A stretch of 64,000 nt of DNA from Mucilaginibacter sabulilitoris (GTDB lineage: Bacteria; Bacteroidota; Bacteroidia; Sphingobacteriales; Sphingobacteriaceae), in contig NZ_CP139558.1 in NCBI RefSeq assembly GCF_034262375.1, positions 5,084,001 to 5,148,000 on the forward strand, in the 5' to 3' direction. Each line of letters begins with the position of its first letter. Within the stretch, counting starts at the first letter, position 1. Shown here in pieces: positions 36,528-55,017 of this stretch. A program made the translations under genes and the position numbers. Below the pieces are notes generated by a model, which was not told the origin of the DNA, did no database searches, and worked only from the letters and a program-made list of their open reading frames with translations.

Positions 36528-38081
36528 TTAGTTTGACAGCGTTGTTGCATCTGCACCTTTTTCAATCTCATCTATTAATGACGAGGCTGACAGCGTGTAA
36601 TACACATGTGCTCTTGGAGTAATCCATTTTTTATTTGCTACGTCAAAACTACCGCCCAGCTTTATAAATATTCCTGCATCGGCGGGGGTACTATGAGGGA
36701 AGATATAGTTATTTGAACCTTGGAACATAAACGACTGAGCCGCGCCGGTTGAATCAACAGGATTATAATGATCATTTTCCGGAATGCGGTAACCTTTATT
36801 GGTGGTAGCATTGTATATGGTAGTTTTACCGGTACCTCCAAAAAATACCACATCAAGCGGCACCGAGGTTTCAACCACGTCGGTACCTTCAAATATAGCT
36901 ATACCACCAGCATTCCCACTATTTGGCAATAAGCCTGCGCTCATGCTGCCAAAGCCATCCCCATCATTTGTTACATAGGCAATTGCACGTATCCATTTTG
37001 AGGTACTGATATCTGTAGAATTTGGCCCGTTGATTTTCTTGTTACTGCCACCTACATAAAAGAAATCGCCTTTGTTAACAACACCCGATGTAAGGTTGAA
37101 TTTATAAGTGCGGCCACCGCCGGTAGCCCATCCGGCTCCCGGTGCATCGCCTGCATTTGGTGCCGCGGTACCCGCATTAGTACAGGTTACTACAGCCATT
37201 GGCGTTTTTTCAAAATCAATAGTTTGGGTTGCCATAAACTGAAAATACTCATAGTTACCGTCGGCTCCCTTTGTATCATTTATATAACCGGTAATAATAA
37301 CAGCGCCATTACCCAGGCCAGGTCCGGTTGGGTCAACAGGTTTGGTTGTTTCACTAATATCTGAACCATACCGGGGCCAGATGGATAGCGCGGGTTGCCC
37401 GTCATGCTGTCCAACAATTAATATCCCCGCTACAGTGGCGCTTCCCGGCAGTTTTGTATCAGCATAATTCGCCGTTGCCTCGGTATGCATAATAATACTA
37501 TCGGCGCCATTAACCAGGTACCGTTCTCCTGCAAATGTTTCATCTGGCTTTGGGGCCGGAGAAATAGTTGCTGATTTAATTTGCACTAATGTGCTCTCAT
37601 AAGCCCCGGGGTTGGTTTTTATAGCGTAACTGGAAGCCTGCTGCATCTTAACCGGATTATCTGACGATACTTTTTGAATATCAGATTCAGTTAATCCGCT
37701 GATCTGTAACGCACCATCAACCTTTTTCAGCATAGCGCCCTCTACCTTAACTACCAGCGAGTCGCCCGAATGGTAATTTGCGGCCGCGTCGCCCAAAGGG
37801 AGCAAAACACCCCTTGTTACCGAACGCCTGAAATTCTGAAGTACTATCATGTTTTTAGGCACATTTCCGGAGTCGGGATTGGAAATTACTATACCTACAA
37901 TTTGGCTCGCGCCAACCATGTTATCTTTAGTTAAAGTTACATCGCTGCCCTTATAAAGGTCACGCAAATCGCTTACCGCTATAATAGGGCTTAAAGTACC
38001 TGCGGCAAAATCATGTTTTTTACATGCCGTCCACAGCAAAGTGATGCTGCAAAGGGTAATATATATCCATATCTTTTTCAT
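36528..38081 (-). CDS. DUF5689 domain lipoprotein of the SusC/SusD operon
   Basis: A 517-residue lipoprotein with lipobox LLWTACKKH. A DUF5689 domain, predicted to have an OB-like fold, covers about 30-240, with AVSDLRDLYKG and QIVGIVISNPDSGNVPKNM. The C-terminal half (about 260-510) is beta-rich and has VIITGYINDTKGADGNYEYF, a pattern like lamin-tail domains found in secreted nucleases. I chose the ATG at 38081 for its signal peptide. It follows the SusD gene by 23 bases and is probably a surface substrate-binding protein of the system. Confidence 0.75.
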   Translation of the reverse strand: MKKIWIYITLCSITLLWTACKKHDFAAGTLSPIIAVSDLRDLYKGSDVTLTKDNMVGASQIVGIVISNPDSGNVPKNMIVLQNFRRSVTRGVLLPLGDAAANYHSGDSLVVKVEGAMLKKVDGALQISGLTESDIQKVSSDNPVKMQQASSYAIKTNPGAYESTLVQIKSATISPAPKPDETFAGERYLVNGADSIIMHTEATANYADTKLPGSATVAGILIVGQHDGQPALSIWPRYGSDISETTKPVDPTGPGLGNGAVIITGYINDTKGADGNYEYFQFMATQTIDFEKTPMAVVTCTNAGTAAPNAGDAPGAGWATGGGRTYKFNLTSGVVNKGDFFYVGGSNKKINGPNSTDISTSKWIRAIAYVTNDGDGFGSMSAGLLPNSGNAGGIAIFEGTDVVETSVPLDVVFFGGTGKTTIYNATTNKGYRIPENDHYNPVDSTGAAQSFMFQGSNNYIFPHSTPADAGIFIKLGGSFDVANKKWITPRAHVYYTLSASSLIDEIEKGADATTLSN

Positions 38082-38104
38082 AATATCTTTTAGCATTTAA
38101 ATGT

Positions 38105-39553
38105 TTACTGTTTTTGCCACCAAACCTGTGTGCTTATTACATCGGGGCCTTGTGTAGCTACAGCCGCGTTATAATTTTGCCCGTTGGTTGATTGCAGGTA
38201 CACCGGGTAATTTAACCGGGCCGGCATAATCCCGCCGTTTTCTAAACCTGCTCCTTTTGGTAAAACCGGGTGACCTGTACGGCGATATTCAAACCACGAC
38301 TCCAGATCGGTAAAAAACAACGCATAATACTTTTGCTTGTGAATGAGTTCCATCTTTTTATCCAGATCGTAACTTTCATTCCATTTTACCAGATCAAAAT
38401 TCAGGTAATTGGCCGGTAAGGCATATCCCCACATTGATATGGCACTGGTTACACCAGTTTCATAGTAGGTTTGGGCCGGTTTGTTTGTTATCCATCCTTT
38501 TGCTGCCGCTTCGGCCAGTATAAACTGCAATTCGGCATAGTTCATGATATTGCCCAACAGCGGTTCTTTTTGTAAAGGAGTGGTTAATGTAGATTTACCC
38601 TGAGGGGCCTGACCAATTGCATAACCGCTCGGAACCCCTGCATACTCACCATCGAACTGGGTAGCCCATTTACCAATGCGCGGATCGCTCCAGGCATTCA
38701 GGTTATCAACAAAAAAGCTGGCCAGTCTGGGGGTGTACCAGTCGGCGGGCCGCCAGGTTGCAAATGGCGAAACATAAGGCGCCGTGCCCGACCACTTTAA
38801 TATAGCCGAATCATCATTACTTGCCATTATAGGATAGCCTGTAGAGTTGGTGTCAACAATCTCCTTTATCTTGGCAGTCGCGTTCATCTCAGTTTTTGCA
38901 GATACCCTTAGCAATAACCTTAAATAAAGCGAATTGCCAAACTTACGCCAGTTGGCTACATTCCCACCGAAGATGGGGTCGCTTGTACCGGTTACATTGG
39001 CAGCAGTCGCCAGTAACTTATTTGCATTTTCTAACTTGGCAAACAGATCGGTATAAATAGCCTGCTGCTTGTCAAATGCAGGAGTAAATAAATTTTCGTC
39101 TTTTGCCTTAAGTGCGTTGAAATAAGGTATATCGCCATAAGTATCGGTAAGCATAGAGAATACCCAAGCCTGGCATATTAGTGCTATACCTTGATAAGCA
39201 GGGCTATTGGTAGCAACCCCGCCTTCATAAACATCTTTAAAATTAGCCAGTTGCAGGTACCAGTTGTTCCATAAATAATCGGCCTCCGATTTAACAATAT
39301 CATACCTGAATATTTTGCCGTCAGAATCGCCCATGTTTACGGTAACCTGCATCAGTTCGTTGGTAACCCGCTGGCTGCGGCTCATGTTGGCTTCAACCAC
39401 ATTGGCTATAGCGGGAGCCAGTAAGGCCTGCGGCAATGCGTGATCACTGGTGTTCGGATTGGTGTTAAGCTCTTTAAAGTCTTTTTTGCAAGAACTTACA
39501 GATACCAATGTTAACAGCAACACCGTGTTTAAACTATATATAAACTTTTTCAT
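38105..39553 (-). CDS. SusD/RagB-family outer membrane lipoprotein (SusD_2 type)
   Basis: A 482-residue lipoprotein with lipobox SVSSCKKDF. It belongs to the SusD-like group with the start DFKELNTNPNTSDHALPQ and TPR-like helices such as YQGIALICQAWVFSMLTDTYGDIPY. It would sit over the SusC channel and hand over substrate. I chose the ATG at 39553, which opens the signal peptide and lies 16 bases from the SusC stop. Its C-terminus includes WFEYRRTGHPVLP, a common SusD motif. Confidence 0.9.
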   Translation of the reverse strand: MKKFIYSLNTVLLLTLVSVSSCKKDFKELNTNPNTSDHALPQALLAPAIANVVEANMSRSQRVTNELMQVTVNMGDSDGKIFRYDIVKSEADYLWNNWYLQLANFKDVYEGGVATNSPAYQGIALICQAWVFSMLTDTYGDIPYFNALKAKDENLFTPAFDKQQAIYTDLFAKLENANKLLATAANVTGTSDPIFGGNVANWRKFGNSLYLRLLLRVSAKTEMNATAKIKEIVDTNSTGYPIMASNDDSAILKWSGTAPYVSPFATWRPADWYTPRLASFFVDNLNAWSDPRIGKWATQFDGEYAGVPSGYAIGQAPQGKSTLTTPLQKEPLLGNIMNYAELQFILAEAAAKGWITNKPAQTYYETGVTSAISMWGYALPANYLNFDLVKWNESYDLDKKMELIHKQKYYALFFTDLESWFEYRRTGHPVLPKGAGLENGGIMPARLNYPVYLQSTNGQNYNAAVATQGPDVISTQVWWQKQ

Positions 39554-39569
39554 TTTAAATATCTTTTGA

Positions 39570-42500
39570 TTAAATGCCAATGGTTAAGTTGACTCCGTAT
39601 GTTCTGGTTGATGGAAATTGCCCCAGTTCAAAACCCTGACTAATGTAATTGTCATTAAGGGTGCCGAACTCCGGATCAAAGCCCGGCCATTTGGTTATGG
39701 TGATCAGGTCGCGGCCATAAACACCAATAGTTACACGGGTTAAGCCTAAGCGGCGCAGTAACGTTTGGGGTAAGGTATAATCAAATCTGGCTTCCCTAAG
39801 CTTTAGAAAATCGGTTGAGTAGGTTGTACCCTCCACATTATCCTTTCCGTAATGAGCGGTATAATAGGTAGTTAAATCCTGCGCTATCACTGTATTTGGG
39901 CTATAAGTACCATCCGCGTTTTTGACTACGCCATTACCTATAATGCCGTTATAGCGCCCTGGTAAGGTATTTACGCTTTTACCCTGCTCGGCCAATATGG
40001 CCGATGTTAACGAATAGGCAACCGCGCCATGCTGCGCATCAACTAAAAAGCTTAACGAAAAGTTTTTATAGTTAAACTGGTTACCTAAACTGGCTTTCCA
40101 CTTAGGGGTGGTACTGCCAATGTATTTCATATCGTTTGTAATAACGGGATAGCCATTTTCATAAACAATTTGCCCGTCTGGTGAACGCTCATATCCCCTG
40201 CCATACAGATCGCCCATGCCGCCGCCTATGTAAGCTATAATAGCCCCGCGGCTTCCCGGGCCGGTTTGAATGGTTAAATTTTGAAGACTATCAGTTAGTG
40301 ATAATACTTTATTCTTGTTTGCGGAAAAAGTGGCATTTATGCTCCAGTTAAAACCATTTTTCACTTTTATAGGCGATCCATTGACGGCAATTTCAATGCC
40401 CTGGTTCCGCACAGCTCCCGCGTTAATGATAGCCGCGCTTACACCCGATGCCCTGTCGACTGTTGCTGTTAATATCTGATCTTTTGTTTTACTTGTATAT
40501 AATGTTAAGTCAAAACCTAAGCGGCTGTTAAACAGGCGCCATTCGGTACCCAATTCATAACTTGTAGTGTATAATGGCTTAAGATTAATATTGGCCAATT
40601 TTGTAGGATTTGCCAAACCGCCCGGAAAATCGGTAACCGGAGCATAACTGTATGAGGTAAGGTAGGGATCTGTTCTGCCGCTTCCTACACCGGCATAAGA
40701 ACCCCGTACTTTAGCATAGGATATAGCCTCTGGCATTTTAAATATTTCAGATAAGATGGCGCTTCCGTTAACTGACGGATAAAAGAATGATACATTGCTG
40801 GTTGATGTGGGAGAAGCCAGAATACTACTCCAGTCATTTCGTCCAGTAACATCCAGGAACAAATAGTTTTTATAGCTTGCCGCGAACACACCATAAAAAC
40901 TGTTGATGGCATACTTACTTCTTAAAGGAATGGCTGATAATATACCTGCTTTATTGGCTAATGTATAAACACCTGGGTACAGCAAAGAATCGGCCCGCAG
41001 TTCGTCTCTGTTGTAAGTGTTTTTTAACATACTACCGCCGCCGGTCAGGTTCAATTCAATATCCTTACCTATATTTTGTTTGTAATGAATTAAAAAGTCG
41101 TTGGTTATTTCCTGCGAAAACACACTTTGTGTACGGTACATCCCCTTCAAAAACTTCTCGGTATCATACGGGCGCTGTTCTGATCGTTGATCATTGGCAA
41201 AATCTAAAGCGGTACGTACCATTAAACTCAGGTTTTTCGTAAAGTTATAAGTAACCTGTATGTTACCTGTTAAACCATTCCGGTTAAGCTTGTTATTCAT
41301 TTCGTTGGCTATCAGATAAGGATTATCCGGGTAGCTACTAAAAGGAAAACTTTGCTTAATATTGGTTTGGCCAGGCAGCCAGTAGTCTTTTAACCAGCTT
41401 GCGGGCGCATTTGGCTCCCAAAACATGTTCCAGTACATAACCGACTGGTTGTTATACCCGGTAGCCGGCAGGTTATCACTGGTTTTGTTAGTATAGTTTA
41501 TCCGGGTTGAGATCTGTAATTTATCCGATACTTTTTGGTCAACCGCGAGCGCTACCGTGTTACGCTTATACCCGGTATTGGGTATTATCCAGGTATTATC
41601 AACATTAGTTGCCGAAAAACGGGCCGAGGTTTTATCGGTACCGCCATTTAAGGATACGGAATTGGTGAATGTTTTACCGCTGGTAAAAAAATCTTTACGC
41701 GCATTTGGATAAGCTACCCATGGCGTACGCACTGTTGCGCCGGTATGCGTAACCGGGTCATACTGAAAATATGACTGCCCATCAAACTTAGGGCCCCAAG
41801 CAGAGCTTGTACTGCGCGTGCTTGCACCGTCGGCTGTAGCGCCGAAAGAATAATAGTTGGCGCCACCTACACCCTGCCCGTACTCGTACTGAAAATCAGG
41901 CCAGCGTGAAATATCTTCTATAGCCGCGTTCGAGTTAATGGTGACGTTGATCTTCCCATCTTTGGTTTTGCCCGATTTAGTAGTGATAATGATGGCGCCG
42001 TTAGCGCCACGCTGTCCATACAATGCCGCAGCACCGGGACCTTTTAGTACCGTAATATTTTCAATATCGCTCGGATTGATATCATTAAGCCCGCTGCCAA
42101 AATCAACCGGCGAATCGCCATCAAGATAAGAACTGCTGCCGCTGCCTGTGGTACGGCCACTGCCGTTATTAATAACTACTCCATCGACAACAATTAATGC
42201 TTCGTTGTCACCGGAGAGGTTGCTTTCGCCACGCAAAACTATCCTGTTTGAACCAGTTGGCCCAGCGTTAGAACGGATAAGGTTTAACCCTGCTACTTTA
42301 CCAGATAACGCGTCTGTCCAGTTATTGGAAAGATTTTGGGTTAATTGTTCTCCTTTTACAACAGTTGCAGCATACCCCAGCGCCTTTTCATCGCGTTTAA
42401 TACCTAAGGCTGTAACTACTACTTCGTTTAAAGTAGAGTTTGACATACTTAAGGTAATGGTAACGCCTGTAGTAGTTTTATTAAATACTTGATTTTGTGC

Positions 42501-43001
42501 GGCATAACCTACGGTAGAAAAATTAATCGCGGTGCCGCTTGCTACCTGTACAGAAAACTTACCTTCATTTGTGGTAAAAGCCAAAAGCTTTTTGGCGTTG
42601 TCGCTTACAGAAACCCCGGGAAGTGGTGATTTATCATCGGCTGACATTACGGTACCGCTAACCAGAATCATATCGAGCTTTTTAATTACCAGGTTGCCGT
42701 TGATGTTTTTGATACCAATACCGGCCTGCTGCTGCAATACCTGGGCAAGCCCGTCAAACGAAAGCGATTCCTGGGGTAATGTGACCAGGCTACTCATTTT
42801 CACATCAGCTTCAAAAGAAACCTTGTAACCGTATTTGCTTTTCAAGGTGTTTACTATTTCCTGAACACTTGTACGCTTTTTTTCAAAGCTATACTGATCA
42901 GACGGATTAACCTGCGCCTTTACCATTACAGAAAAAAGCAACAGGAGTAAAACCGGAAACAATTTTTTCCGGGTAAAAAGTAAGCGTTTGAGTTGTTTCA
43001 T
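39570..43001 (-). CDS. SusC/RagA-family TonB-linked outer membrane protein with STN domain
   Basis: An 1143-residue outer membrane importer. A signal peptide (about 1-29) is followed by an STN domain (about 40-110) that signals to FecR, a carboxypeptidase-like beta domain (about 112-195, VSGTVMSADDKSPLPG), the plug (about 205-345, with ITVLKGPGAAALYGQRGANG) and a long beta-barrel to the end. The STN domain together with the sigma and FecR genes upstream shows that the importer reports substrate binding. It is 7 bases from the FecR gene. The imported substrate is unknown; nucleic acid parts are one possibility from context. Confidence 0.93.
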   Translation of the reverse strand: MKQLKRLLFTRKKLFPVLLLLLFSVMVKAQVNPSDQYSFEKKRTSVQEIVNTLKSKYGYKVSFEADVKMSSLVTLPQESLSFDGLAQVLQQQAGIGIKNINGNLVIKKLDMILVSGTVMSADDKSPLPGVSVSDNAKKLLAFTTNEGKFSVQVASGTAINFSTVGYAAQNQVFNKTTTGVTITLSMSNSTLNEVVVTALGIKRDEKALGYAATVVKGEQLTQNLSNNWTDALSGKVAGLNLIRSNAGPTGSNRIVLRGESNLSGDNEALIVVDGVVINNGSGRTTGSGSSSYLDGDSPVDFGSGLNDINPSDIENITVLKGPGAAALYGQRGANGAIIITTKSGKTKDGKINVTINSNAAIEDISRWPDFQYEYGQGVGGANYYSFGATADGASTRSTSSAWGPKFDGQSYFQYDPVTHTGATVRTPWVAYPNARKDFFTSGKTFTNSVSLNGGTDKTSARFSATNVDNTWIIPNTGYKRNTVALAVDQKVSDKLQISTRINYTNKTSDNLPATGYNNQSVMYWNMFWEPNAPASWLKDYWLPGQTNIKQSFPFSSYPDNPYLIANEMNNKLNRNGLTGNIQVTYNFTKNLSLMVRTALDFANDQRSEQRPYDTEKFLKGMYRTQSVFSQEITNDFLIHYKQNIGKDIELNLTGGGSMLKNTYNRDELRADSLLYPGVYTLANKAGILSAIPLRSKYAINSFYGVFAASYKNYLFLDVTGRNDWSSILASPTSTSNVSFFYPSVNGSAILSEIFKMPEAISYAKVRGSYAGVGSGRTDPYLTSYSYAPVTDFPGGLANPTKLANINLKPLYTTSYELGTEWRLFNSRLGFDLTLYTSKTKDQILTATVDRASGVSAAIINAGAVRNQGIEIAVNGSPIKVKNGFNWSINATFSANKNKVLSLTDSLQNLTIQTGPGSRGAIIAYIGGGMGDLYGRGYERSPDGQIVYENGYPVITNDMKYIGSTTPKWKASLGNQFNYKNFSLSFLVDAQHGAVAYSLTSAILAEQGKSVNTLPGRYNGIIGNGVVKNADGTYSPNTVIAQDLTTYYTAHYGKDNVEGTTYSTDFLKLREARFDYTLPQTLLRRLGLTRVTIGVYGRDLITITKWPGFDPEFGTLNDNYISQGFELGQFPSTRTYGVNLTIGI

Positions 43002-43008
43002 GTTTTAA

Positions 43009-43977
43009 TTAAAATATTATAACAGTATGTGGGTTTTTATATCGGTAATGCAGACCTGTGGCGTAGCTTAAGCCATGCAGCAAATTATCAATGCCGGTAT
43101 CCTTCATTTCGCCGCTGAAACGCGCCCTTTTCCTGGCCGATTCCTGTACTTCAATTTTAATATTGTACCAGCGCTGTAGTTTTTCGGCTATAGTATCGGC
43201 ACTGTCATCCTTGAAAAACAGGGTTTCATTTTGCAGGGATGAAGCATCACGCGGATTTACTTCTTTAATGATTGTTTTGTGCGTATTTGGCTGATAAATG
43301 AGTTGCTGACCAGCCTTTACATAATGGGTATGATTATTTTCGGTGATACCTACCAATCCCGTAGCCACTTTAACTTCGGTGTTTGTTTTTGGCCGCGAGT
43401 AAACATTGAATGAAGTACCTAATACCGTTACCGCTAAACGGTTGTCTGTGCGTATAATAAAAGGTTTATGCGGATCATGCTTAACATCAAAAAAGGCCTC
43501 CCCTGTTAACTGCACCTCGCGTTTGCCGGTACCAAACGAGTTGCTATAGCTAATTTTGGAATCGGGCGCCATAAATACCTGGGTACCATCGGGCAGGGTA
43601 AGCCGCCCGCCCAAATTTTGCGCGCTTTTTAAAACCTGTGTGGAATTATCGCTCCGGTACCTGGCATTCTGAACGAAAAGCCAGCCTAAAAAACAAAACA
43701 ACAATAAACTGGCAGCAATACCGGTAAGCCAATACGATGTTTTAGTGCCATCTTTGCTTTTTGATTTTGGCAATTCAAAAATCCTGTCGAGCAAACGCAG
43801 CCATTGTTCGTCAATATCAGTTTGCTTTAAGGGTTGTTCAAGCTGCTTTTTTTTCCTTTCGAGATAGGTAAGCAAATAACGGTGTTCGGTTTGCTCGTTG
43901 ATCCATTCTAAAACCTCATAGGTTTCTTCAGGTCCGCTTTCGCCGTTAACATAATTTAGTATTGTTTCCCAGTTCAC
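43009..43977 (-). CDS. FecR-family anti-sigma regulator (first system)
   Basis: A 322-residue inner-membrane regulator. The cytoplasmic N-terminal part (about 1-85) would hold the sigma factor; one membrane helix (about 87-105, LTGIAASLLLFCFLGWLF) leads to the periplasmic FecR domain (about 118-215) and a DUF4974 C-terminal domain (about 250-320) that would meet the STN domain of SusC. The frame starts with GTG at 43977; the family N-terminus is short, so this fits. A 149-base gap separates it from the sigma gene. Confidence 0.9.
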   Translation of the reverse strand: MNWETILNYVNGESGPEETYEVLEWINEQTEHRYLLTYLERKKKQLEQPLKQTDIDEQWLRLLDRIFELPKSKSKDGTKTSYWLTGIAASLLLFCFLGWLFVQNARYRSDNSTQVLKSAQNLGGRLTLPDGTQVFMAPDSKISYSNSFGTGKREVQLTGEAFFDVKHDPHKPFIIRTDNRLAVTVLGTSFNVYSRPKTNTEVKVATGLVGITENNHTHYVKAGQQLIYQPNTHKTIIKEVNPRDASSLQNETLFFKDDSADTIAEKLQRWYNIKIEVQESARKRARFSGEMKDTGIDNLLHGLSYATGLHYRYKNPHTVIIF

Positions 43978-44126
43978 GCTTTTTAATTTTACTTAAAGAG
44001 CATTAAAGGGCAACTTTCCACCTAAAGAAATTATTAATTTTATGTTAATTTAATGTTAAGTTTCAAGAAGTTAAAAGCTTCATGACTTAACATTTAACTA
44101 TGCATATTAAAAAATTGAAAAGGCGA

Positions 44127-44705
44127 TTATATAGTAGTAAAAATAAGATTGATTAGCATTAACCCGCCTGCAATTGTAGCCTGATCAAGATTGCTGTTAC
44201 GTACAGCATGGCCCAACTGCTCAATTGCCTCACGCATATTGTATTCTACTTTTTTCTCGGTAATATCAAGAACCTGGGCTATTTCGGCATTTTTTAAACC
44301 TAACAGCCTCAGTTCAATCATTTCCTTACGGTGTAATGGCAGTCTGCTGATGAGCTCTTCAACAATTTTAATAGACTGTTTTGCCACAAATTTTTCAAAT
44401 GGATTGTACGTATTCTCGGGGATATCAAAAGCATCGTTGGGTAACTGCGCTGTTTGATAACGGGACGAGATTGCTTTTAACGCGCCATTTTTTGCTGCCC
44501 GGAATAAATATGGCCTTAACTCATTGATCTGCAGTTTATCTTTTTGCTGCCATAAGTTCAAAAACAGGTCGGAAAGTATATCTTTTGCCAGGTCTTCATC
44601 ATTTACAATAGACTTTACATAACGGAATAGCGGCGTATAATTATCCTTAAATATACTTTCAAATCCATCTAATGTATGCAATGAGGGCATATTTACTGTT
44701 TTCAT
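44127..44705 (-). CDS. ECF sigma factor (first FecR system)
   Basis: A 192-residue sigma-70 family factor of the Bacteroidota FecR-associated type. Region 2 is visible as FKDNYTPLFRYVKSIV and DILSDLFLNLWQQ, and region 4 as LPLHRKEMIELRLLGLKNAE with VLDITEKKVEYNMREA. The C-terminus is hydrophobic (about 172-192), as in many members. It should transcribe the SusC, SusD and DUF5689 genes when FecR releases it. Confidence 0.9.
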   Translation of the reverse strand: MKTVNMPSLHTLDGFESIFKDNYTPLFRYVKSIVNDEDLAKDILSDLFLNLWQQKDKLQINELRPYLFRAAKNGALKAISSRYQTAQLPNDAFDIPENTYNPFEKFVAKQSIKIVEELISRLPLHRKEMIELRLLGLKNAEIAQVLDITEKKVEYNMREAIEQLGHAVRNSNLDQATIAGGLMLINLIFTTI

Positions 44706-44856
44706 AATAGGATTGCAAATTAAGGTCAGGTATATTTAGATAACAAAATACCAGGGTTAAATTTATATTAAAAAATTTCAGTATTCAATCTTATTACCAT
44801 CAATTAATTTACAATAGTATTTTATTTAAACCACCAACGCTGCAAATATTCTGTTA

Positions 44857-45192
44857 CTATTTCGAATTATTTTTGTCAATATCTTCGGCTGAAAGTAAGG
44901 CCATAACCTCATTTTTTAAAGTATCGGGAATAAGTATAATACTTTGTGAAACCTGCGCAGTATGTTTATATGCCGACTGGATTTCGGTTACTGGAGGGCA
45001 ATATCCTTTGAGCACGAAACACCCTTTTTGGCTTTCGTACATAACGGTTATCCTCAACTCAGTAAGCAGATATATATCGCGATACACCGTACGGGTACTG
45101 ATGTGGAACTTTTCCTTTAAATAATCAACGGTTACCACCTTTTTAGTTTGTAAAACCGCCAGCACTTCCAAAAGCCTGTCAACCCTGTTCAT
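44857..45192 (-). CDS. Short HTH_11 (YafY-like) regulator lacking the WYL domain
   Basis: A 111-residue protein. Residues 1-58 form a DeoR/YafY-type helix-turn-helix (RVDRLLEVLAVLQTKKVV, then KFHISTRTVYRDIYLLTE). Longer relatives carry a WYL domain after it; here only about 50 residues follow and no WYL motif is seen. The tail may be a dimerisation segment. It sits 151 bases upstream of the sigma gene on the same strand and may affect this locus, which is inference only. Confidence 0.72.
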   Translation of the reverse strand: MNRVDRLLEVLAVLQTKKVVTVDYLKEKFHISTRTVYRDIYLLTELRITVMYESQKGCFVLKGYCPPVTEIQSAYKHTAQVSQSIILIPDTLKNEVMALLSAEDIDKNNSK

Positions 45193-45270
45193 TTATTAAT
45201 ACTATTAAATTGCATATAAAAGTGCGGCAGCATATTGACAACTGTATGTCAGCACAAAAAATTATAATGA

Positions 45271-45311
45271 AACAACAAAGCCGGCTTTTCGTAAGAGCCG
45301 GCTTTGTTGTT
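45271..45311. terminator. Strong bidirectional hairpin terminator after the endonuclease gene
   Basis: Perfect 16-base arms (45271-45286 and 45296-45311; agccggctttgttgtt) enclose a 9-base loop. It lies 19 bases beyond the minus-strand stop of the endonuclease gene and separates it from the HTH gene. The T-rich arm makes it symmetric in both directions. Confidence 0.8.
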
Positions 45312-45330
45312 TGTAAGTTTATTTGTAAGA

Positions 45331-46806
45331 TCAGGCTCCGGGAATACCGGCGTCAAGCTTCACTTCCAAAGCAGCCCTTACATTAGCCGGCAGGCTCGAT
45401 AATAAGGTATAACCGGTGGCAGTTTCAATATCCTTTACGGTTACAATATACTTTGTCCAATCGCTGTTAATATTGTTGACGTTTGGCGTATTAACTGCGA
45501 TAACCCTTGTAGAGGCAGTTACCCTGCTCAGGTCACCATTTCCTGCGGGAATAATCACCGCCACCTTCCAAACATTGCTTGGAACATTGATATGACCATT
45601 ATCAATTGTATTTGCAGCACCGTTTTTACCGGTACCTCCGGTACCATAGCTACCCATGATAATATAAATTTCATTTCCCTCTACCACCTGTTCACGCAAA
45701 TAATTTTCCATGTTCGCCCAGGTATGTTCGTTGTTATTTGGGGCCTGTGGTATTATATTAGTCATTAAAAATGTAGCATCATTGGCACCTGTGGAGCTTG
45801 TACGGTCGGCCGAAGGACAATTATGTCCCCTGTCGAACCCGCTGTTTGTATAATTGGCTGTAACAACCATATACATGCTTGAGGGTAAACCTGCCCAGCC
45901 GGCAAAGTCATCTCCACGCGGGCTCGCATTTGTAGTATTTGTAGCATCCAGATGCCAGCTTACCCAGTTAGGCTCGCCTTTGGTAGCGTTATATGATTCG
46001 GTATAATATTTCTGGTCGATGAGGTAATTGTCCGAAGATGCAATATTGTTTTGAGCGTTTGACGGATTGCCAAACAGCAAATTGCTGTTATCGCCACTGG
46101 CCGGCGGAGCATCAGCACCGGCAGTTACATCACGCGGCGCAGAGCCGGACGGATTTCCGCTGTCACTATCACCGTCACCGCTGCCGTCATCAGGCGTACC
46201 TACAACAATACCCGGATCGCCTGTACCCTTAAAGGTAATATCGTCAATATTTATACGGTCGGTGGTGGTACCTACCTTTTTAATCTCAAAACGAACCTTG
46301 CCGGTAGTACTTACCTTAAATGAGTCGGTAACCAGTGTAGTATTGGTTTCGTTAATATCGCTGCCAACCTGGGTGTAGGTTTTACCACCATCTGCCGACA
46401 TTAATAACTGCCAGGCCGATGGCTTGTCGGCACCCGTATATTTGCCATGTTTAATATACAAAGTAGTAAGGCCATTAATATCAAAGTTCATGGCAATATC
46501 ACCAGCACGTAAACGTACCGATTTAAGACCGTCTTTTAGGTCGGCAGCAAGATTACCTATTACAGCGTCGTTAAAATTCCAACTACCGGTACTTAACGTT
46601 ACATCGGCCGCGGCATAGGCCGTTTTTGTTCCCTGCTCAAAATCTTCGGTAATGGAATAAGGAGCAGGTGCCGGCGGCGGGTTAACCGGTGGGGTTTTCG
46701 TTGTATCGGTTGGAGGAGTAACTGATGGTTCACTAAGATCTTTTTTTGAACAGCCGGCAATGGTTAATATTAAACCAATACCCAGCAATAGGTTTTTAAT
46801 TTTCAT
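45331..46806 (-). CDS. Secreted DNA/RNA non-specific endonuclease lipoprotein
   Basis: A 491-residue lipoprotein with lipobox LTIAGCSKKD. A Pro/Thr-rich linker is followed by a beta-sandwich domain (about 50-195, ITEDFEQGTKTAYAA to INIDDITFKG), a low-complexity Asp/Gly/Ser linker, and a NUC1-type endonuclease domain (about 250-485). The active-site DRGH is seen in FDRGHNCPSADR, with TNIIPQAPNNNEHTWANME supplying the metal-binding Asn region. It would cut DNA and RNA outside the cell or in the periplasm. It lies upstream of the sigma/FecR/SusC set on the same strand, but a terminator and the HTH gene separate them. Confidence 0.9.
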   Translation of the reverse strand: MKIKNLLLGIGLILTIAGCSKKDLSEPSVTPPTDTTKTPPVNPPPAPAPYSITEDFEQGTKTAYAAADVTLSTGSWNFNDAVIGNLAADLKDGLKSVRLRAGDIAMNFDINGLTTLYIKHGKYTGADKPSAWQLLMSADGGKTYTQVGSDINETNTTLVTDSFKVSTTGKVRFEIKKVGTTTDRINIDDITFKGTGDPGIVVGTPDDGSGDGDSDSGNPSGSAPRDVTAGADAPPASGDNSNLLFGNPSNAQNNIASSDNYLIDQKYYTESYNATKGEPNWVSWHLDATNTTNASPRGDDFAGWAGLPSSMYMVVTANYTNSGFDRGHNCPSADRTSSTGANDATFLMTNIIPQAPNNNEHTWANMENYLREQVVEGNEIYIIMGSYGTGGTGKNGAANTIDNGHINVPSNVWKVAVIIPAGNGDLSRVTASTRVIAVNTPNVNNINSDWTKYIVTVKDIETATGYTLLSSLPANVRAALEVKLDAGIPGA

Positions 46807-46945
46807 GATATTTTTTTAAGAAAGATGAATAAAGGACAAAGCAACAGCGTGCAACACGCTGTGCAAAAAGCTTAAAAAGGATAAGGTTTAGGGATAAAAG
46901 TAATACAGGAGCGTAATTAAGCTATGCTCCTGTATTAACTAATAA

Positions 46946-48064
46946 TTATTTCTCAGGTACGAAAACCTTAAAAATAGAGCCATCATAGGTAAATGTTTTG
47001 GCTACGTTAGAAGTTTTACCGAAGCTGTAAACAGTGTAAGTAACTATAAATTTTTGATCGGTAATAGCAGTGCTTTTAAACTTATTTGTTAAAACTGCAA
47101 TTAGTGCGGCGTTAAGATCATCATCGCTCCAATAAGTAGCATCATCTGGGCTGCTAATGTTAAAATCAGGATATTGTGCAACATTTGCCCTTGCAGCATC
47201 CGAACCAGCCTTGGTTTGCGTACCAATGTAAGTGTAATCGTCTTTAACGAGTGTGTAATTCACAGAAACATCTAAAATCCATTTACCACCGCTTTTGCTA
47301 AATGAAAGAGAACCTGTAGTTGGTGTCGCAACCCAGTTTGTGCCGTCAAATGTCATTCCGGCTATCCGTTGAAAGTTTTTACCGCCGTAATATTTATAAC
47401 TTACATATTGAATATTTCCAGCAGCCGAATTTGAAGAAACCACTATGTCATTTTTTAATATTAAATTAAAGTATGTTGCGAGTTTAGCGTCATCTGTTGA
47501 TGAAAAGTCATTATAGGGATGCCCGGTACTGGCGTATTGAGCGGCGGTAAGTGTATAACATTTCACCCAGGCACCATTAAGATAAATGAACGTATCTGTT
47601 TGATTTGGTATAGCCGATGGTGTAACACCAGACTCGAAATAAATATAAGTTAAAAACGACAGCTGGTTGGGCTGAGGATTTGGGTATTTAATACCTAAAA
47701 AGCTAATAACCTGTGCCGAAGTAAACTCCAGGTACTTTGGATTAGGTCCAAGAACAGTTGCATAATCAGCAGGAGTAACTGTATAAGATATATCTGTAAG
47801 TAAACTATCTGCTGGTTTTACAGAAACAGGCGATAATGTAAAAGTTACCGTTGCACTCGAACCATTATCTAATTGTGGGTATTTAGCGTCTAAAATACCA
47901 GGTATCTTAGTTTTGGCATCATCAGTTGACGTAAATGTAGTTGTTGTGGGCAATGTTATAGCCATACCTTTTTTAGTATAACCCTGCGGGGCAACATTTG
48001 GCTGCTTTTGGCAGGCGGTAAAAGCCATAGCTACAAAAGCTAATAAATAATATATCTTTTTCAT
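46946..48064 (-). CDS. Hypothetical lipoprotein paired with the STN TonB receptor
   Basis: A 372-residue lipoprotein with lipobox MAFTACQKQP. I do not recognise a domain. The mature protein contains two similar segments with a SxDDA core (TSTDDAKTKIPGILDAKYPQ and FSSTDDAKLATYFNLILKN, and a third SSPDDATYWSDDDLNAALI), suggesting about three repeated units of 100-130 residues. Its place, 10 bases after the TonB receptor gene, is the place a SusD would take. A surface-exposed substrate-binding role is inferred from that position. Confidence 0.6.
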   Translation of the reverse strand: MKKIYYLLAFVAMAFTACQKQPNVAPQGYTKKGMAITLPTTTTFTSTDDAKTKIPGILDAKYPQLDNGSSATVTFTLSPVSVKPADSLLTDISYTVTPADYATVLGPNPKYLEFTSAQVISFLGIKYPNPQPNQLSFLTYIYFESGVTPSAIPNQTDTFIYLNGAWVKCYTLTAAQYASTGHPYNDFSSTDDAKLATYFNLILKNDIVVSSNSAAGNIQYVSYKYYGGKNFQRIAGMTFDGTNWVATPTTGSLSFSKSGGKWILDVSVNYTLVKDDYTYIGTQTKAGSDAARANVAQYPDFNISSPDDATYWSDDDLNAALIAVLTNKFKSTAITDQKFIVTYTVYSFGKTSNVAKTFTYDGSIFKVFVPEK

Positions 48065-48074
48065 GTAGTTATTT

Positions 48075-50933
48075 TTAAAATTTAACTTTTATACCTGTAG
48101 TGAATGTTCTGCCCAAACCATAATATACGTTGAGGTTTGCAGGATCACCTGTTGCACTTGCATCAAAACCATCTGATATAAATTTGGTATTCAGCAGGTT
48201 ATTTACATTACCAATAAGTGATGCGTCAAGCCCTGCCAGTTTAAATTTGAATTTCGCATTTAGGTTCCAGGTAGAGTAATTCGGCAATTTATATGGGTGG
48301 ATGCCTGGCACTGTAATATTGGCAAAGCTGAAGCTTGAATAGTAATTACCAAAGAAATTATAGTTTGTACCTAATCTTAAATCAGGCAAAACGTTAATAT
48401 CAAGGCCGAACGCCGCAGTGGTTTGTGCAGCGTCGCCTACTTTAACTCCCTTTACCAAAGCCGCTTTAACGGATCCTATTTGTTCATGCTGATCGTTAAA
48501 TACGGTAGCCGGACCGGTATTTTTGGTATAATACCAATCGCCATAAGAGAACATACCATTTAAGGTAATGGCTTTAATTGGCTGGTAATGTAATTCCAGT
48601 TCAGCTCCCTGGTGCATTTCGCTAACACCTGAAATATTTACGCTATATATCTGGTTAGTAGTATTATCTGTATATGAGTTTGAAAACGATTGGTCCATGT
48701 ATGAACTGCGGTAAAGGTTCAGTTTGGCTACTAAGCCCGATGTTTTAAATTGGTAACCTAATTCATAGCTAAACAATTTTTCGTCTACAGTTCCGGTATT
48801 GATACTGTTTGTGAACTTCTGGAACACATTATCAAAATAAGGCGGTTTAGTGATGTAACCAATATTGGCAAACACGTTCATCTGATCATTGATGTTATAG
48901 TTTGCACCACCTTTAGCCTGGTACGTGAAAAAATTCACATACTTACTTGACTGATTTGGATCGTTGTTCAGATAGTTATAAAGGTCGACACGTTTATCGC
49001 CGGTTCCTGAACCTGATAAGGTGATAAAGGCAGAAAAATCATCCTTAGCGTACTCAGCCTGGGCAAATACGCCTCCGGATTCCACGTAATCTTTATTGTA
49101 ATAATCTATCTTATCGCCAACTACCGCACGGTGATTCGGGTTATTGATATCACCTGATCTGCTTCCGGCAGCATTACCGGCAGTATACTGATCAAATACA
49201 TAATCGGCACCTAACAAATCTGTAACCTCTTCATAATGGGTACCTTTATAATACCTGAGGTCAAAACCTGCAGACACATTAAGATACCTGGCGACAGTAG
49301 TATTATAGGTACTTCTTAAACCATACCAGGCATGATCATTATGTGAGGCATAAAGATAGGTTGAAGCAGAGCCATCAGGATTAGCCGCATTGGCTTTTTG
49401 AACCGCGTCAAAGTCAAATGGTGAATAAGCATTACTTACCCTTGGTGGAATAGTTGAGCCACCAACTGGCGCACCAATTGAGCCACCACCGCCCGTACCG
49501 TAAGTAGCATACAACACGGTCGACAGACTTGAATTGTCGTTAATAACCCAGTTATGGTTTAGTGAAAATACAGGTTTGCTGAAAAAGTTGTTATACGGAT
49601 TGAATTGTTTACCATCCTTAACGCTCAGATAGTAGTTCCATTTAATGTCCTGAGGGGCATTTTGATATTCAGCTATAGAGCGCTCAGGTCTTTGCCCGTG
49701 TTTTTGTGTTGCTCCCATTACGGAGAAAGAGATGGTTTGTTTTGGACTTATTACTTTAGACAAGTTGAAAAAGTAGTTATAACCTAAAAAGTTGAGTCCA
49801 TCGGCAAATCCGTCACCTTTGGTCCGGCCACCCTGGAACGTTGCCGCCCAGCCATTTTCAGTTAGCCCGGTTGATACTAATACTGAGGTTTTTTCATAAC
49901 CGTCGCTGCCTATGGTTTGTGAAATATAACCACCTTTTTGAGTGTCGGTGTTGCGTGTAGTGATATTGATAGTACCACCAAATGATGGGATAATGATTTT
50001 TGACGCACCTAAACCACGTTGTACCTGCAATGAAGTGGTAACATCGGTAAGACCCGACCAGTTTGACCAGAAGATTGATCCGTTTTCCATATCATTAACC
50101 GGGATACCGTTAATAGTTAAGGCTACGTTACCTTTTTTTGAACCGCTTGAAAAACCACGGATGCTGATACGTGAGTCGCCAAACCCACCGCCTTGCGCTG
50201 TAGCCATGATACCCGGCGTGCTCTGCAATAACTGCGGGATATCACCTGTTCCTAATTTTTCTTCAATAAACTGCTGATTTATGGTTGAAACCGCGATTGG
50301 CGTTTTACGATCAACTGCAACGTCGCCGGTTACCACAACTTCGCTCATGGCATTGGCGCTTGCTTTAAGTTGAATTTCGCCAAGGTCGGCATTGCCCGAA
50401 AGAGTAATTTCTTTGGTTACATAACCTATATAAGAGATAACCAGCACTGTACCGGCATCCGTGCCTAAATTTAATTTAAAAGCACCGTTTAACCCGGTCG
50501 AGGTAGCTTTGCCCCCGCCCTTTACACCTACCGAAGCTCCGATAAGGGGCTCTTTAGTATCAGCATCAATAACCTTACCTATATAAACTGGAGCCAGCAT
50601 TGTTTGCGTATTTGCACCGGTAGCTGTTTTATCCTGCTTTTCTTTAACCACAATGGTATGGCCAACAATGGCATACGTTACGGGCTGTCCTTTAAATACT
50701 TTTTCAAGCACTTTTGTTAAAGGTTGCTGCTTAACGTTTACCGATACCTTGTTACTGCCGGCAACCAGTTCTGTTTGCATAAAAATGTCATAGCCGCTTT
50801 GTTGTTCAATTTTATTTAAAACAGTTTCGAGGCTTACATTTTTTTCGGCAAGGGTAATATTCTGGCTAAAACTTGCGGCACTAAGATGAAGGCATACTGC
50901 AAATAATAAAGCTGCGATAAGTTTAATGCGCAT
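48075..50933 (-). CDS. TonB-dependent receptor with STN domain (second system)
   Basis: A 952-residue outer membrane receptor. The signal peptide (about 1-24, LIAALLFAVCLHLSAASFSQ) is followed by an STN domain (about 30-85), a carboxypeptidase-like domain (about 105-185, YIGKVIDADTKEPLIGASVG), the plug (about 205-330, with SIRGFSSGSKKGNVALTING) and the barrel, ending GLGRTFTTGIKVKF. The STN domain suits signalling through the FecR protein encoded upstream. I chose the ATG at 50933; an in-frame ATG at 51047 would add 38 residues, and such extensions occur in FecR-linked receptors, so it stays possible. Confidence 0.9.
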   Translation of the reverse strand: MRIKLIAALLFAVCLHLSAASFSQNITLAEKNVSLETVLNKIEQQSGYDIFMQTELVAGSNKVSVNVKQQPLTKVLEKVFKGQPVTYAIVGHTIVVKEKQDKTATGANTQTMLAPVYIGKVIDADTKEPLIGASVGVKGGGKATSTGLNGAFKLNLGTDAGTVLVISYIGYVTKEITLSGNADLGEIQLKASANAMSEVVVTGDVAVDRKTPIAVSTINQQFIEEKLGTGDIPQLLQSTPGIMATAQGGGFGDSRISIRGFSSGSKKGNVALTINGIPVNDMENGSIFWSNWSGLTDVTTSLQVQRGLGASKIIIPSFGGTINITTRNTDTQKGGYISQTIGSDGYEKTSVLVSTGLTENGWAATFQGGRTKGDGFADGLNFLGYNYFFNLSKVISPKQTISFSVMGATQKHGQRPERSIAEYQNAPQDIKWNYYLSVKDGKQFNPYNNFFSKPVFSLNHNWVINDNSSLSTVLYATYGTGGGGSIGAPVGGSTIPPRVSNAYSPFDFDAVQKANAANPDGSASTYLYASHNDHAWYGLRSTYNTTVARYLNVSAGFDLRYYKGTHYEEVTDLLGADYVFDQYTAGNAAGSRSGDINNPNHRAVVGDKIDYYNKDYVESGGVFAQAEYAKDDFSAFITLSGSGTGDKRVDLYNYLNNDPNQSSKYVNFFTYQAKGGANYNINDQMNVFANIGYITKPPYFDNVFQKFTNSINTGTVDEKLFSYELGYQFKTSGLVAKLNLYRSSYMDQSFSNSYTDNTTNQIYSVNISGVSEMHQGAELELHYQPIKAITLNGMFSYGDWYYTKNTGPATVFNDQHEQIGSVKAALVKGVKVGDAAQTTAAFGLDINVLPDLRLGTNYNFFGNYYSSFSFANITVPGIHPYKLPNYSTWNLNAKFKFKLAGLDASLIGNVNNLLNTKFISDGFDASATGDPANLNVYYGLGRTFTTGIKVKF

Positions 50934-51117
50934 AATAAATTTCCTTTTTGTAGCCGGATTTATCCGGGAAAAACAATTGGTAATCTTATTAAATGTATTT
51001 ACCCGCCTGCTTTCACATACAGGCGCTGGAAATGTAGAAAAATCCATATTTTTGTTTGGGTTGTTTAGTAAAAAGTGTATTAGTCAATATGATTTATATT
51101 GTCAGCCCAATATTTAG

Positions 51118-51202: not shown

Positions 51203-52408
51203 TTATGATTTTACAATAATTTTCCTCCCGTTAATTGTGAAGTTTATACCGCTTGTTTTAAGTATTTCAAATATTTCTGAAACAGGCACATCTCTGGATA
51301 TGCGCCCCCTGTAATGCTTTTGAGCCACATTACCCTGGTATTCCACATCCACATCATACCATCTCGACAACTGGCGCATAATGGGGCGCAGCTCGGTATT
51401 GCGGAATAGGAACTTGCCATTTTTCCAGGATACGGCCTCGTCCAAATCCGCACCTTCCTTTACGTTAATAGCATTTATGGTGTTTATTGATTGCTCACCC
51501 GGTTTAAGTTTGATGGTTGCTCCGCTGGTGCTGCTCATTACTTTTACACTGCCTTCGAGCAGGGTGGTTTTTGTAACTGCCTCATCCGCGTAACTGTTAA
51601 TATTAAAGTGTGTACCTAAAACCGTTACTGTTTGGGTCGCTGTTTTTACAAAAAATGGTTTAAGCGCGTTTTTGCTCACTTCAAAATAAGCTTCGCCGGT
51701 TAACTCGACCTTACGCTCATTGCCAGTAAACGCGGTGGGGTATTTTAATGACGAAGCCGCATTTAACCAAACCCGTGTACCATCTGGTAAAACAACCTCA
51801 TATTGCCCGCCACGCGGGGTAGTTAAAGTGTTCATGGCAACAAGCTGGGCTACTACCGGAACCTGGTCCGCCTGGCTGCTGGCCGTAACGTCATAAATCA
51901 CTTTTCCACTCTGGGTTTTGTTAATGATTACGTTTCGCTGGCTGGCAATTTTACCGTTTTTGGTATCATCAAGAATTATTTGTGAGCCATCGGCCAGGGT
52001 TAATACAGCTTTGCTGCCACCCGGTAAAAGATCTTTTTGCTGATGGGCTAAAACTTTTTGCTCATCACCCTTTTTATACTTGCTCAGGGTAATTCCCAGG
52101 GCCAGCAGTACAGCTATAGCGGCAGCGTAACCCAACAACCTTCCGGTTATCTTTGGTTTATCTTCAGCACTTTTAAATCCTGTTTTTTTAACAATATTTT
52201 TCCAGGCTTTGTCTTTATTGGTTGCCGAAAGCAGCTCCAATTCATTGTTAATATTAGCTTCATCAATTAGCTTTCTGAATAATTCCTGGTTGCGCTCATC
52301 TGACTGGAGCCATTGCTCCAGTTCGTTTTTTTCCTGTGCTGTGAGCTCGTTGCGCAGGTATTTTGCGATCAGACTACCCAGGTCAAAGTATGGTTTATAA
52401 TTACTCAT
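51203..52408 (-). CDS. FecR-family anti-sigma regulator (second system)
   Basis: A 401-residue regulator. The cytoplasmic part (about 1-90) includes LIAKYLRNELTAQEKNELEQ; the membrane helix is about 93-112 (YAAAIAVLLALGITLSKY). The periplasmic FecR domain (about 195-295, TPRGGQYEVVLPDGTRVWLN) and the C-terminal DUF4974 domain (about 330-400) are complete. I chose the ATG at 52408; the frame extends 11 codons further without family support. It lies upstream of the STN receptor but 2.0 kb from its presumed sigma gene. Confidence 0.9.
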   Translation of the reverse strand: MSNYKPYFDLGSLIAKYLRNELTAQEKNELEQWLQSDERNQELFRKLIDEANINNELELLSATNKDKAWKNIVKKTGFKSAEDKPKITGRLLGYAAAIAVLLALGITLSKYKKGDEQKVLAHQQKDLLPGGSKAVLTLADGSQIILDDTKNGKIASQRNVIINKTQSGKVIYDVTASSQADQVPVVAQLVAMNTLTTPRGGQYEVVLPDGTRVWLNAASSLKYPTAFTGNERKVELTGEAYFEVSKNALKPFFVKTATQTVTVLGTHFNINSYADEAVTKTTLLEGSVKVMSSTSGATIKLKPGEQSINTINAINVKEGADLDEAVSWKNGKFLFRNTELRPIMRQLSRWYDVDVEYQGNVAQKHYRGRISRDVPVSEIFEILKTSGINFTINGRKIIVKS

Positions 52409-52856
52409 AGTTGCTTTTCGTACATAAAGACACCTTACCATTAAAAAAGGATAAAGTGATGTGCATTTTTTTTAAGTTTTTGTGTGTGTTATTTTTGAGC
52501 TTCTAATACACAGCTTTTTTTGTATTAAGTTCCTTTCATTTTATGAAACATTATTCACAAACGAACAGGTAATGTATTGGAAACGGACAGTTTATTAAAT
52601 CAATTCATTTAATAATTAACTCAATAACAACAACTTAAATGATTGGCATTGAGATTGTAAATTTATGGGTGGCTGGTAAATAATTGTTTTACCCTTAGCT
52701 GGGGTTGTTATGATATGACGAGATCAGTTCCCCAAAAGGAGGTTAAGCTTCACCGGGCATATTGATAAAGTTTTTACGAAACGGTAACATTTTAAAACAA
52801 AGAACTTTCAAACTAATTCACACTGAATAAAAATGTTTTTTTTTTAAACAAACGTT
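52409..52856. other. Divergent intergenic region between FecR and serine hydrolase genes
   Basis: I see no gene in these 448 bases. The stretch is AT-rich and must contain both divergent promoters. A TATTTTTG at 52490-52497 fits the -7 rule on the plus strand but has no suitable upstream TTG and is far from the start. A run of ten T lies at 52836-52845, just before the serine hydrolase. Confidence 0.55.
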
Positions 52857-54426: not shown

Positions 54427-55017
54427 TTACTTTAACAGAGCAAGGGTAAGCATCAGGAACCAGGTAAACATTTCGGGGGTAAGTTTCATCCTGAGTAACT
54501 GCAACGCTCTTTGCTTTTGCTTTTTTACCGTATTTATTGACATATCTAGTTCTTCGGCAATTTCATGGTTCTTTTTACCATCAAAAAAACCCATAACAGA
54601 TATTGTCTTATAGTTGGCAGGCAGCGCATGAACGGCCGAATGAATTTCGGCAATCGCTTCGGCAGTAATTATTGCTTCAATTACAGGAGGTTCTTCAGGC
54701 TCAGTACCACCTTGCTGCTGTATATAGCCTTCTACAACTTTATTATGCCTTATAGTATTAAGACTCGCGTTACGAACGGTGCTGTACAAAAAGTTTTTTA
54801 TGGCTATTTTATCCTGCATCACCATTTCGCGCTGGTTCCAGTATTTTATAAACGCGTCCTGAACAATGTCTTCGGCCTGGTCTTTATCCCTTATCAGTTG
54901 TAAAGAGAAATAAACCAACCTGTCGTAATATTCCTTAAAAAGTGCATCGAGATCAATATTTTCAACTGATCCGTCTGCATTACTTTTGTGCGTAAATATT
55001 CCTTTTACAATGCTCAT
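54427..55017 (-). CDS. ECF sigma factor (second FecR system)
   Basis: A 196-residue sigma-70 family factor with region 2 (LFKEYYDRLVYFSLQLIRD, then AEDIVQDAFIKYWNQ) and region 4 (ALPANYKTISVMGFFDGKKN, then ELDMSINTVKKQKQRAL). The C-terminus is hydrophobic (FTWFLMLTLALL), as in FecR-associated sigma factors. Its FecR partner is probably the protein encoded at 51203-52408, since no other FecR gene is close; the intervening serine hydrolase is on the other strand. Confidence 0.88.
   Translation of the reverse strand: MSIVKGIFTHKSNADGSVENIDLDALFKEYYDRLVYFSLQLIRDKDQAEDIVQDAFIKYWNQREMVMQDKIAIKNFLYSTVRNASLNTIRHNKVVEGYIQQQGGTEPEEPPVIEAIITAEAIAEIHSAVHALPANYKTISVMGFFDGKKNHEIAEELDMSINTVKKQKQRALQLLRMKLTPEMFTWFLMLTLALLK

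Follow-up and report, generated by a model that had tools for sequence, protein, structure and literature searches.

The stretch of DNA analyzed here (the window) comprises 64,000 nucleotides of the Mucilaginibacter sabulilitoris genome (G000; 7.55 Mb, one contig, NZ_CP139558.1, window at 5084001–5148000), and it harbors on its minus strand an outer-membrane importer of the SusC/SusD type with its regulators, together with a secreted nuclease (Table 1). An initial annotation had read these genes as a single locus for scavenging nucleic acids. The genes that it named, i.e., those for the nuclease, extracytoplasmic-function (ECF) sigma factor, FecR, SusC, SusD and DUF5689 protein, were all recovered in place by sequence and Pfam, whereas a second receptor set and a Pho-like repeat had been omitted. 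The ECF sigma gene adjoins that of FecR, and the SusC/RagA receptor is followed by a SusD-family lipoprotein (Pfam, TIGR04056), in agreement with the proposal of an importer of this type that regulates itself and has a further surface protein. Starting from the FecR gene at 51203, the gaps measure 155 bp to the receptor, 10 bp to the lipoprotein, 139 bp to the nuclease and 138 bp to the HTH_11 gene, and from there 151 bp to sigma, 149 bp to FecR, 7 bp to SusC, −11 bp to SusD and 8 bp to DUF5689. Because of these gap sizes, FecR–SusC–SusD–DUF5689 is regarded as one tight unit, in which all reading frames are long and open, and the receptor and its lipoprotein as another. Scans for sigma-70 promoters and terminators gave nothing useful beyond chance.

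Table 1 Genes and promoter elements of the window locus (positions in the window)
Feature	Position (strand)	Basis or remark
FecR of the receptor–lipoprotein–nuclease set	51203–52441 (-)	Ahead of the receptor gene
TonB-dependent receptor of the nuclease set	48075–51047 (-)	Pfam and locus comparison
Lipoprotein, receptor partner	46946–48064 (-)	No Pfam family
Secreted lipoprotein nuclease (Endonuclease_NS) with N-terminal module	45331–46806 (-)	PF01223, E 1.1e-44
HTH_11 regulator	44857–45192 (-)	Pfam; between nuclease and sigma
ECF sigma factor	44127–44705 (-)	PF04542, PF08281
Pho-like box TTAACAT-N4-TTAACAT	44042–44059 (-)	Zero mismatches; 82 bp upstream of FecR
-7-like element TAATTTCT	44026–44033 (-)	8-bp spacing; 4/6 fixed bases of TAnnTTTG
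FecR anti-sigma factor	43009–43977 (-)	PF04773, PF16344; first gene behind the Pho-like box
SusC/RagA TonB-linked outer-membrane receptor	39570–43001 (-)	TIGR04056, above curated cut-off
SusD-like_2 surface lipoprotein	38105–39580 (-)	PF12771, E 3.5e-106
DUF5689 surface lipoprotein, 522 aa	36528–38096 (-)	PF18942, E 4.5e-22

SusC, SusD and DUF5689 form a conserved triad. Across 121 genomes of the family (120 drawn plus that of M. sabulilitoris), it recurred in 38 further DUF5689 loci, with DUF5689 kept as the third gene after SusC–SusD, and the type was found in Mucilaginibacter, Pedobacter, Sphingobacterium and Chitinophaga. Pfam neighbors in these loci included a phosphoesterase with MetallophosN/C domains, GDPD, DAO (glycerol-3-phosphate dehydrogenase-like), an FGGY kinase, an MIP channel, an MFS transporter, a DeoR regulator, a GDSL lipase and PLDc_2; the MFS protein and the kinase pass the NCBIfam cut-offs for GlpT and GlpK, respectively. 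In a second set of named Bacteroidota loci, the best 80 of 254 relatives (overlapping the first, e.g., L138 = G106), gene families were assigned via profiles made from the first set, and 71 of the 80 loci held at least one glycerophosphodiester or glycerol-phosphate gene: phosphoesterase 68, GDPD 27, GlpD 16, GDSL 16, GlpR 14, GlpK 14, GlpF 13, GlpT 11 and PLD 2. Nine loci lacked all of these families, two of them with a phosphoesterase nearby: one of the PF04185 family lies two genes further along in L173, and one of the PF00149 family adjoins DUF5689 in L178. MetallophosC lay within 10 kb of DUF5689 at 38 of 107 places in the 121 genomes (after removal of three rows below the cut-off), where random placement in 4.5-Mb genomes would give ~0.6. 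When modeled (pLDDT 83.4, pTM 0.85), the phosphoesterase linked to the triad in relatives had the glycerophosphodiesterase GpdQ as its top match in both programs (Foldseek E 2.1e-8; Z 22.1), with other metallophosphoesterases ranking close behind. The window SusD groups with those of two Mucilaginibacter agri loci (L159 and L164) with support 98, in what was a quick tree. Elsewhere in the family, one genome (G026) has 12 matches to the DUF5689 protein, several in tandem, on various contigs and mostly on C22, and a Bacteroidota locus (L206) within a record titled Williamsia, an actinomycete, is probably a mis-binned contig. A broken copy in Mucilaginibacter sp. 44-25 (L062/L138) retains DUF5689 and a SusD that has lost its start, with no SusC, and stands beside two reading frames that look transposase-like by eye.

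Comparison of the sigma–FecR gap with those of relatives revealed a direct repeat, TTAACAT-TAAA-TTAACAT (44059–44042). Its general form, TTAAYAT-N4-TTAAYAT, occurs at 8 sites in the M. sabulilitoris genome vs. 1 for the reversed control, and at 39 vs. 7 in ten relatives, where the genes around 30 of the 39 sites were examined. One site in M. sabulilitoris separates a histidine kinase gene from the PhoU_div and PHO4 phosphate transporter genes, and PhoU_div/Pit genes are preceded by these repeats in 7 of 11 genomes (M. sabulilitoris and 6 of the 10 relatives), so that tandem 7-bp repeats with an 11-bp period are common to the window box and the phosphate-transport promoters. In the 230 bp ahead of the first gene, and with up to two mismatches allowed, 48/72 clusters carried Pho-like repeats vs. 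7/243 controls, while other periods gave 0 to 7. A matrix built from the seven Pit promoter sites alone, in order to limit circularity, placed 57/72 cluster promoters above the control 95th percentile (area under the curve 0.92), and scored the window box at 27.6, with that percentile at 7.2. The repeat is spaced by 8 bp from TAnnTTTG, which we take to be the Bacteroidota -7 element; this spacing is exact in 6/7 Pit promoters and in 25/58 cluster promoters having a site, and is missing from the sigma promoters of several congeners. Composite scores of 17 or more were reached by 34/72 clusters vs. 2/271 controls, with the window FecR promoter at 18. The window box is thus presumably a Pho box under the control of PhoB. 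No Bacteroidota consensus was found in the consulted portion of PMC3547664, nor a published consensus for this promoter pattern in the open papers searched. Exact Pho-like repeats also stand 52 and 84 bp upstream of two orphan TonB receptors of the same genome (L215 and L216, at 1.93 and 2.74 Mb).

From the gene neighbors and the promoter, we are fairly confident that the FecR–SusC–SusD–DUF5689 unit (43977–36528) is an outer-membrane importer, induced by phosphate starvation, whose substrates are glycerophosphodiesters or polymers of these. It would most likely serve to scavenge phosphorus from glycerol-phosphate compounds, such as degraded membrane lipids, under phosphate scarcity. In that state, PhoB would occupy the TTAACAT-N4-TTAACAT box and start transcription, and substrate sensing relayed from SusC through FecR to the ECF sigma factor would add further induction. 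DUF5689 and SusD would catch the phosphodiester at the cell surface and SusC would import it, energized by TonB. In relatives, the GpdQ-like phosphoesterase and GDPD would free glycerol-3-phosphate for subsequent uptake by GlpT, while in M. sabulilitoris other enzymes would have to replace the missing phosphoesterase. Gene content, conservation, the promoter repeats and the lack of the phosphoesterase family are direct results, whereas the substrate, the binding of PhoB and the direction of flow are inferred. As for the phosphate and nucleic-acid scavenging originally proposed, the phosphate part is supported, whereas nucleic acid as the substrate found no support.

Ten congener loci carry the phosphoesterase gene between sigma and FecR, where the window has only 149 bp. 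This gap matches the relatives' flanks chiefly at the repeat, and tblastn found no phosphoesterase remnant in the window. The alignment makes a clean deletion likely, and the gene would presumably have been lost in such an event. The nearest relative (L164) also lacks a phosphoesterase at this place and has a propeller-domain gene downstream, ended by the contig edge; four propeller-phosphoesterases like that of L173 (56–71% identity) are located elsewhere in the M. sabulilitoris genome, as are five GDPD matches, several of them beside other SusC/SusD pairs. At 6.84 Mb (L210, 6465–14464), a SusC/SusD-like_2 pair is accompanied by a PF01663 phosphodiesterase-like gene, GDPD and a calcineurin-like phosphoesterase, likely a second organophosphate locus of this genome. 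Further SusC/SusD-like pairs adjoining GDPD genes lie at 6.01 Mb (L207) and 2.81 Mb (L209), one of them with a sulfatase.

The nuclease had originally been grouped with the SusC/SusD locus, in the expectation that their proximity would be conserved in relatives. The DRGH motif (residue 325) is retained in its Endonuclease_NS catalytic domain, and the solved structure nearest to the nuclease in sequence is 1zm8 ("Nuclease", E 3.7e-58), which we take to be Anabaena NucA; in distinction from 1zm8-type enzymes, with which it shares catalytic domain and motif, it is a lipoprotein with an extra N-terminal module and is placed behind a TonB receptor. Of the 121 genomes, 51 have a match to the DUF5689 protein, 54 to the nuclease (many only partial) and 4 to the lipoprotein. 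For linkage, the 31 best nuclease rows (E 1.7e-88 or better) were kept, of which 15 fall in the 12 genomes also holding DUF5689. Only one of these 15 places, the window's own, lies within 10 kb of DUF5689; the distance is 95 and 218 kb, on one contig each, in G111 and G106, and in the other genomes with both genes they are on separate contigs or farther apart. No full-length nuclease was found in the 80 named loci. Membership of the nuclease in the SusC/SusD locus was therefore rejected, the triad's true partners being glycerophosphodiester and glycerol-phosphate genes to which the nuclease is unlinked.

Judged from gene order, the nuclease closes a separate receptor–lipoprotein–nuclease set and is parted from sigma by the HTH_11 gene, which was the best match of no reading frame in 60 other regions compared. 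Beyond the window, the order recurs in G048 alone (L091, 5387–10683), and G006 and G108 have lipoprotein-bearing loci without a nuclease there, which only weakly suggests a conserved unit. In G048, an exact Pho-like repeat lies 106 bp upstream of the set's receptor. A further sigma gene (54427–55017), 1985 bp from the FecR gene at 51203, is an unsure member of the window set. The set at 45331–51047 may represent a second TonB system, possibly importing the products of the nuclease. Among 19 relatives' nuclease promoters, 7 had spacing scores of 17–19 and 12 scored 15 or less; the seven are those of stand-alone orthologues in congeners (L082–L088), with the composite promoter 52–63 bp upstream. 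Under the Pit-only matrix, 3/19 exceeded the control 95th percentile, including 2 of these 7. The window nuclease has no Pho-like composite promoter of its own (score 12). In view of the orthologues' promoters, the nuclease may meet this phosphate demand from a different genomic location.

The AlphaFold model of the DUF5689 protein (pLDDT 87.9, pTM 0.57) shows two OB folds (~34–257), in keeping with the OB-like domain of the initial annotation, and a beta-rich C-terminal part. The annotated lamin-tail-like region is plausible, as residues 264–513 match the DUF4876 protein 4q1z (Z 9.6, root-mean-square deviation 4.0, 189 aligned), although no lamin-tail Pfam hit was obtained for the protein; neither was one for DUF5017. 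The VIA-align comparison covered mainly residues 149–257, and families missing from it are no evidence. Taken singly, the OB folds best match tRNA-synthetase anticodon domains (Z 10.4). OB folds bind many ligands, and the fold alone carries no ligand information.

Several observations weigh against a glycerophosphodiester importer. Neither a phosphoesterase nor a glp gene is present in the window locus, and MetallophosC has no match anywhere in the genome; the substrate is therefore argued from relatives. At two mismatches, 24/72 clusters lack the repeat; the enrichment is partly circular because the repeat was first noticed at these loci; the window -7 element is imperfect (4/6 fixed bases); the window sigma promoter scores at control level; and the DUF5689 fold is similar to HIN domains, which bind DNA. 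The missing enzyme could also mean that the locus is a decaying remnant, an importer without a defined role, for which the 149-bp gap and the broken congener locus L062 could be cited as well. We consider this very unlikely, as long open frames and the exact Pho-like box are retained in the unit, and the GDPD matches elsewhere, some beside other SusC/SusD pairs, could supply hydrolysis. Least probable is an ordinary polysaccharide utilization locus with incidental glycerol-phosphate neighbors: it would share the common plan of SusC/SusD with sigma/FecR, and single glycoside hydrolases (GH2, GH36, GH43 and others) do stand beside a few loci, but no carbohydrate-enzyme family recurs among 50 unassigned neighbors (of 89 candidates), those listed matching one member each, while the frequency of the phosphoesterase and the Pho-like promoters at the clusters point elsewhere.

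The idea that the DUF5689 OB folds bind extracellular DNA or RNA, which the nuclease trims and SusC/SusD imports as oligonucleotides for phosphate or nucleosides, has several points in its favor. HIN dsDNA-binding domains are the top Foldseek match of the tandem OB folds (E 6.8e-6), a DUF5689-DUF5017 protein is needed for natural transformation and DNA uptake in Riemerella anatipestifer (PMC8459023, as far as consulted), Pho-like promoters stand on nuclease orthologues in 7/7 congener loci, and extracellular nucleases of Flavobacterium johnsoniae are induced by low phosphate (PMC8115612, as far as consulted). In addition, weaker nuclease matches, excluded from the linkage count, do occur at some DUF5689 genes. 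In the excluded rows, the match is confined to the N-terminal module, to a short terminal fragment or to a distantly related catalytic domain. An N-module protein standing by itself, ~190 residues long, adjoins DUF5689 in G110 and G105, one of 205 residues is found at the L161 locus, and the module is fused behind DUF5689 in one protein in G050, G077, G120 and others. It is thus the N-module, not the catalytic part, that is common to nuclease and DUF5689 loci. (At 3.42 Mb in the M. sabulilitoris genome, L101 9623–11236, another protein combines the N-module, at 45–51% identity, with a DUF4350-like part.) The resemblance to HIN domains is loose (TMq ~0.2, root-mean-square deviation 7–15), with the single folds closer to anticodon domains; the nuclease is unlinked to the triad; the 25 commonest families of the 50 unassigned neighbors include no nuclease or nucleotidase; and the recurrent partners are glycerol-phosphate genes. 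A nucleic-acid importer is for these reasons unlikely, although DUF5689 may have a nucleic-acid or polyanion role in view of the HIN-like folds and the Riemerella protein.

A glycerophosphodiester importer has its closest known counterparts in the phosphate utilization systems PUSI and PUSII of F. johnsoniae (Lidbury et al., PMC8115612, consulted in part), which likewise combine a SusC/SusD-like pair with sigma or FecR regulators. These have phosphodiesterases or a phosphatase alongside and are induced by phosphate depletion, with lipid headgroups and nucleic acids as the targets proposed by the authors. Their induction has been demonstrated, whereas that of the window system is predicted from its Pho-like promoter. 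A phosphodiesterase or phosphatase beside SusC/SusD is absent from the window locus and present in 71/80 of the relatives' loci. PusD1 and PusD2 carry pf07980/pf14322, in contrast to the SusD-like_2 (PF12771) of the window. In the main text of that paper as consulted, reference list aside, there is no mention of glycerol, GDPD, teichoic acid, Pho box or promoter, and DUF5689 turned up in a single other paper. In the Riemerella protein (RA0C_RS04920; PMC8459023, consulted in part), the DUF5689 domain and a neighboring outer-membrane protein gene recall the window, but its second domain is DUF5017, its function is DNA uptake and its partner is annotated as carboxypeptidase-regulatory-like, while the window partner is SusC/SusD. 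Polysaccharide utilization loci share the TonB receptor importer, surface lipoprotein and sigma/FecR control, whereas glycerol-phosphate enzymes replace recurring carbohydrate enzymes in window-type loci. GpdQ (2dxl, 3d03), the best fold match of the relatives' phosphoesterase, has ~15% identity to it and lacks the additional domains that the latter has at its N and C termini (PF16371, PF16370). The window system is probably a SusC/SusD phosphate-utilization variant for glycerophosphodiesters, located beside an independent nuclease set.

A broader, doubtful proposal is that the triad family would import entire phosphodiester polymers under Pho control, with the tandem OB folds of DUF5689 gripping the backbone. 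The normal polymer would be poly(glycerol phosphate), for example teichoic acid of Gram-positive neighbors, from which SusC would draw in oligomers for the GpdQ-like enzyme and GDPD. In the Riemerella uptake pair, the DUF5689 domain would have been adapted for DNA, and TTAAYAT-N4-TTAAYAT-N8-TAnnTTTG would be a Pho promoter of this bacterial order.

SusC/SusD importers have mostly been studied for sugar import. Our results point, via neighbors and promoter, to organic phosphorus as the target of a widespread SusC/SusD type. The promoter pattern would allow phosphate-starvation genes to be listed directly from the genomes of this order, and DUF5689, named in one of the papers searched, gains a testable role.

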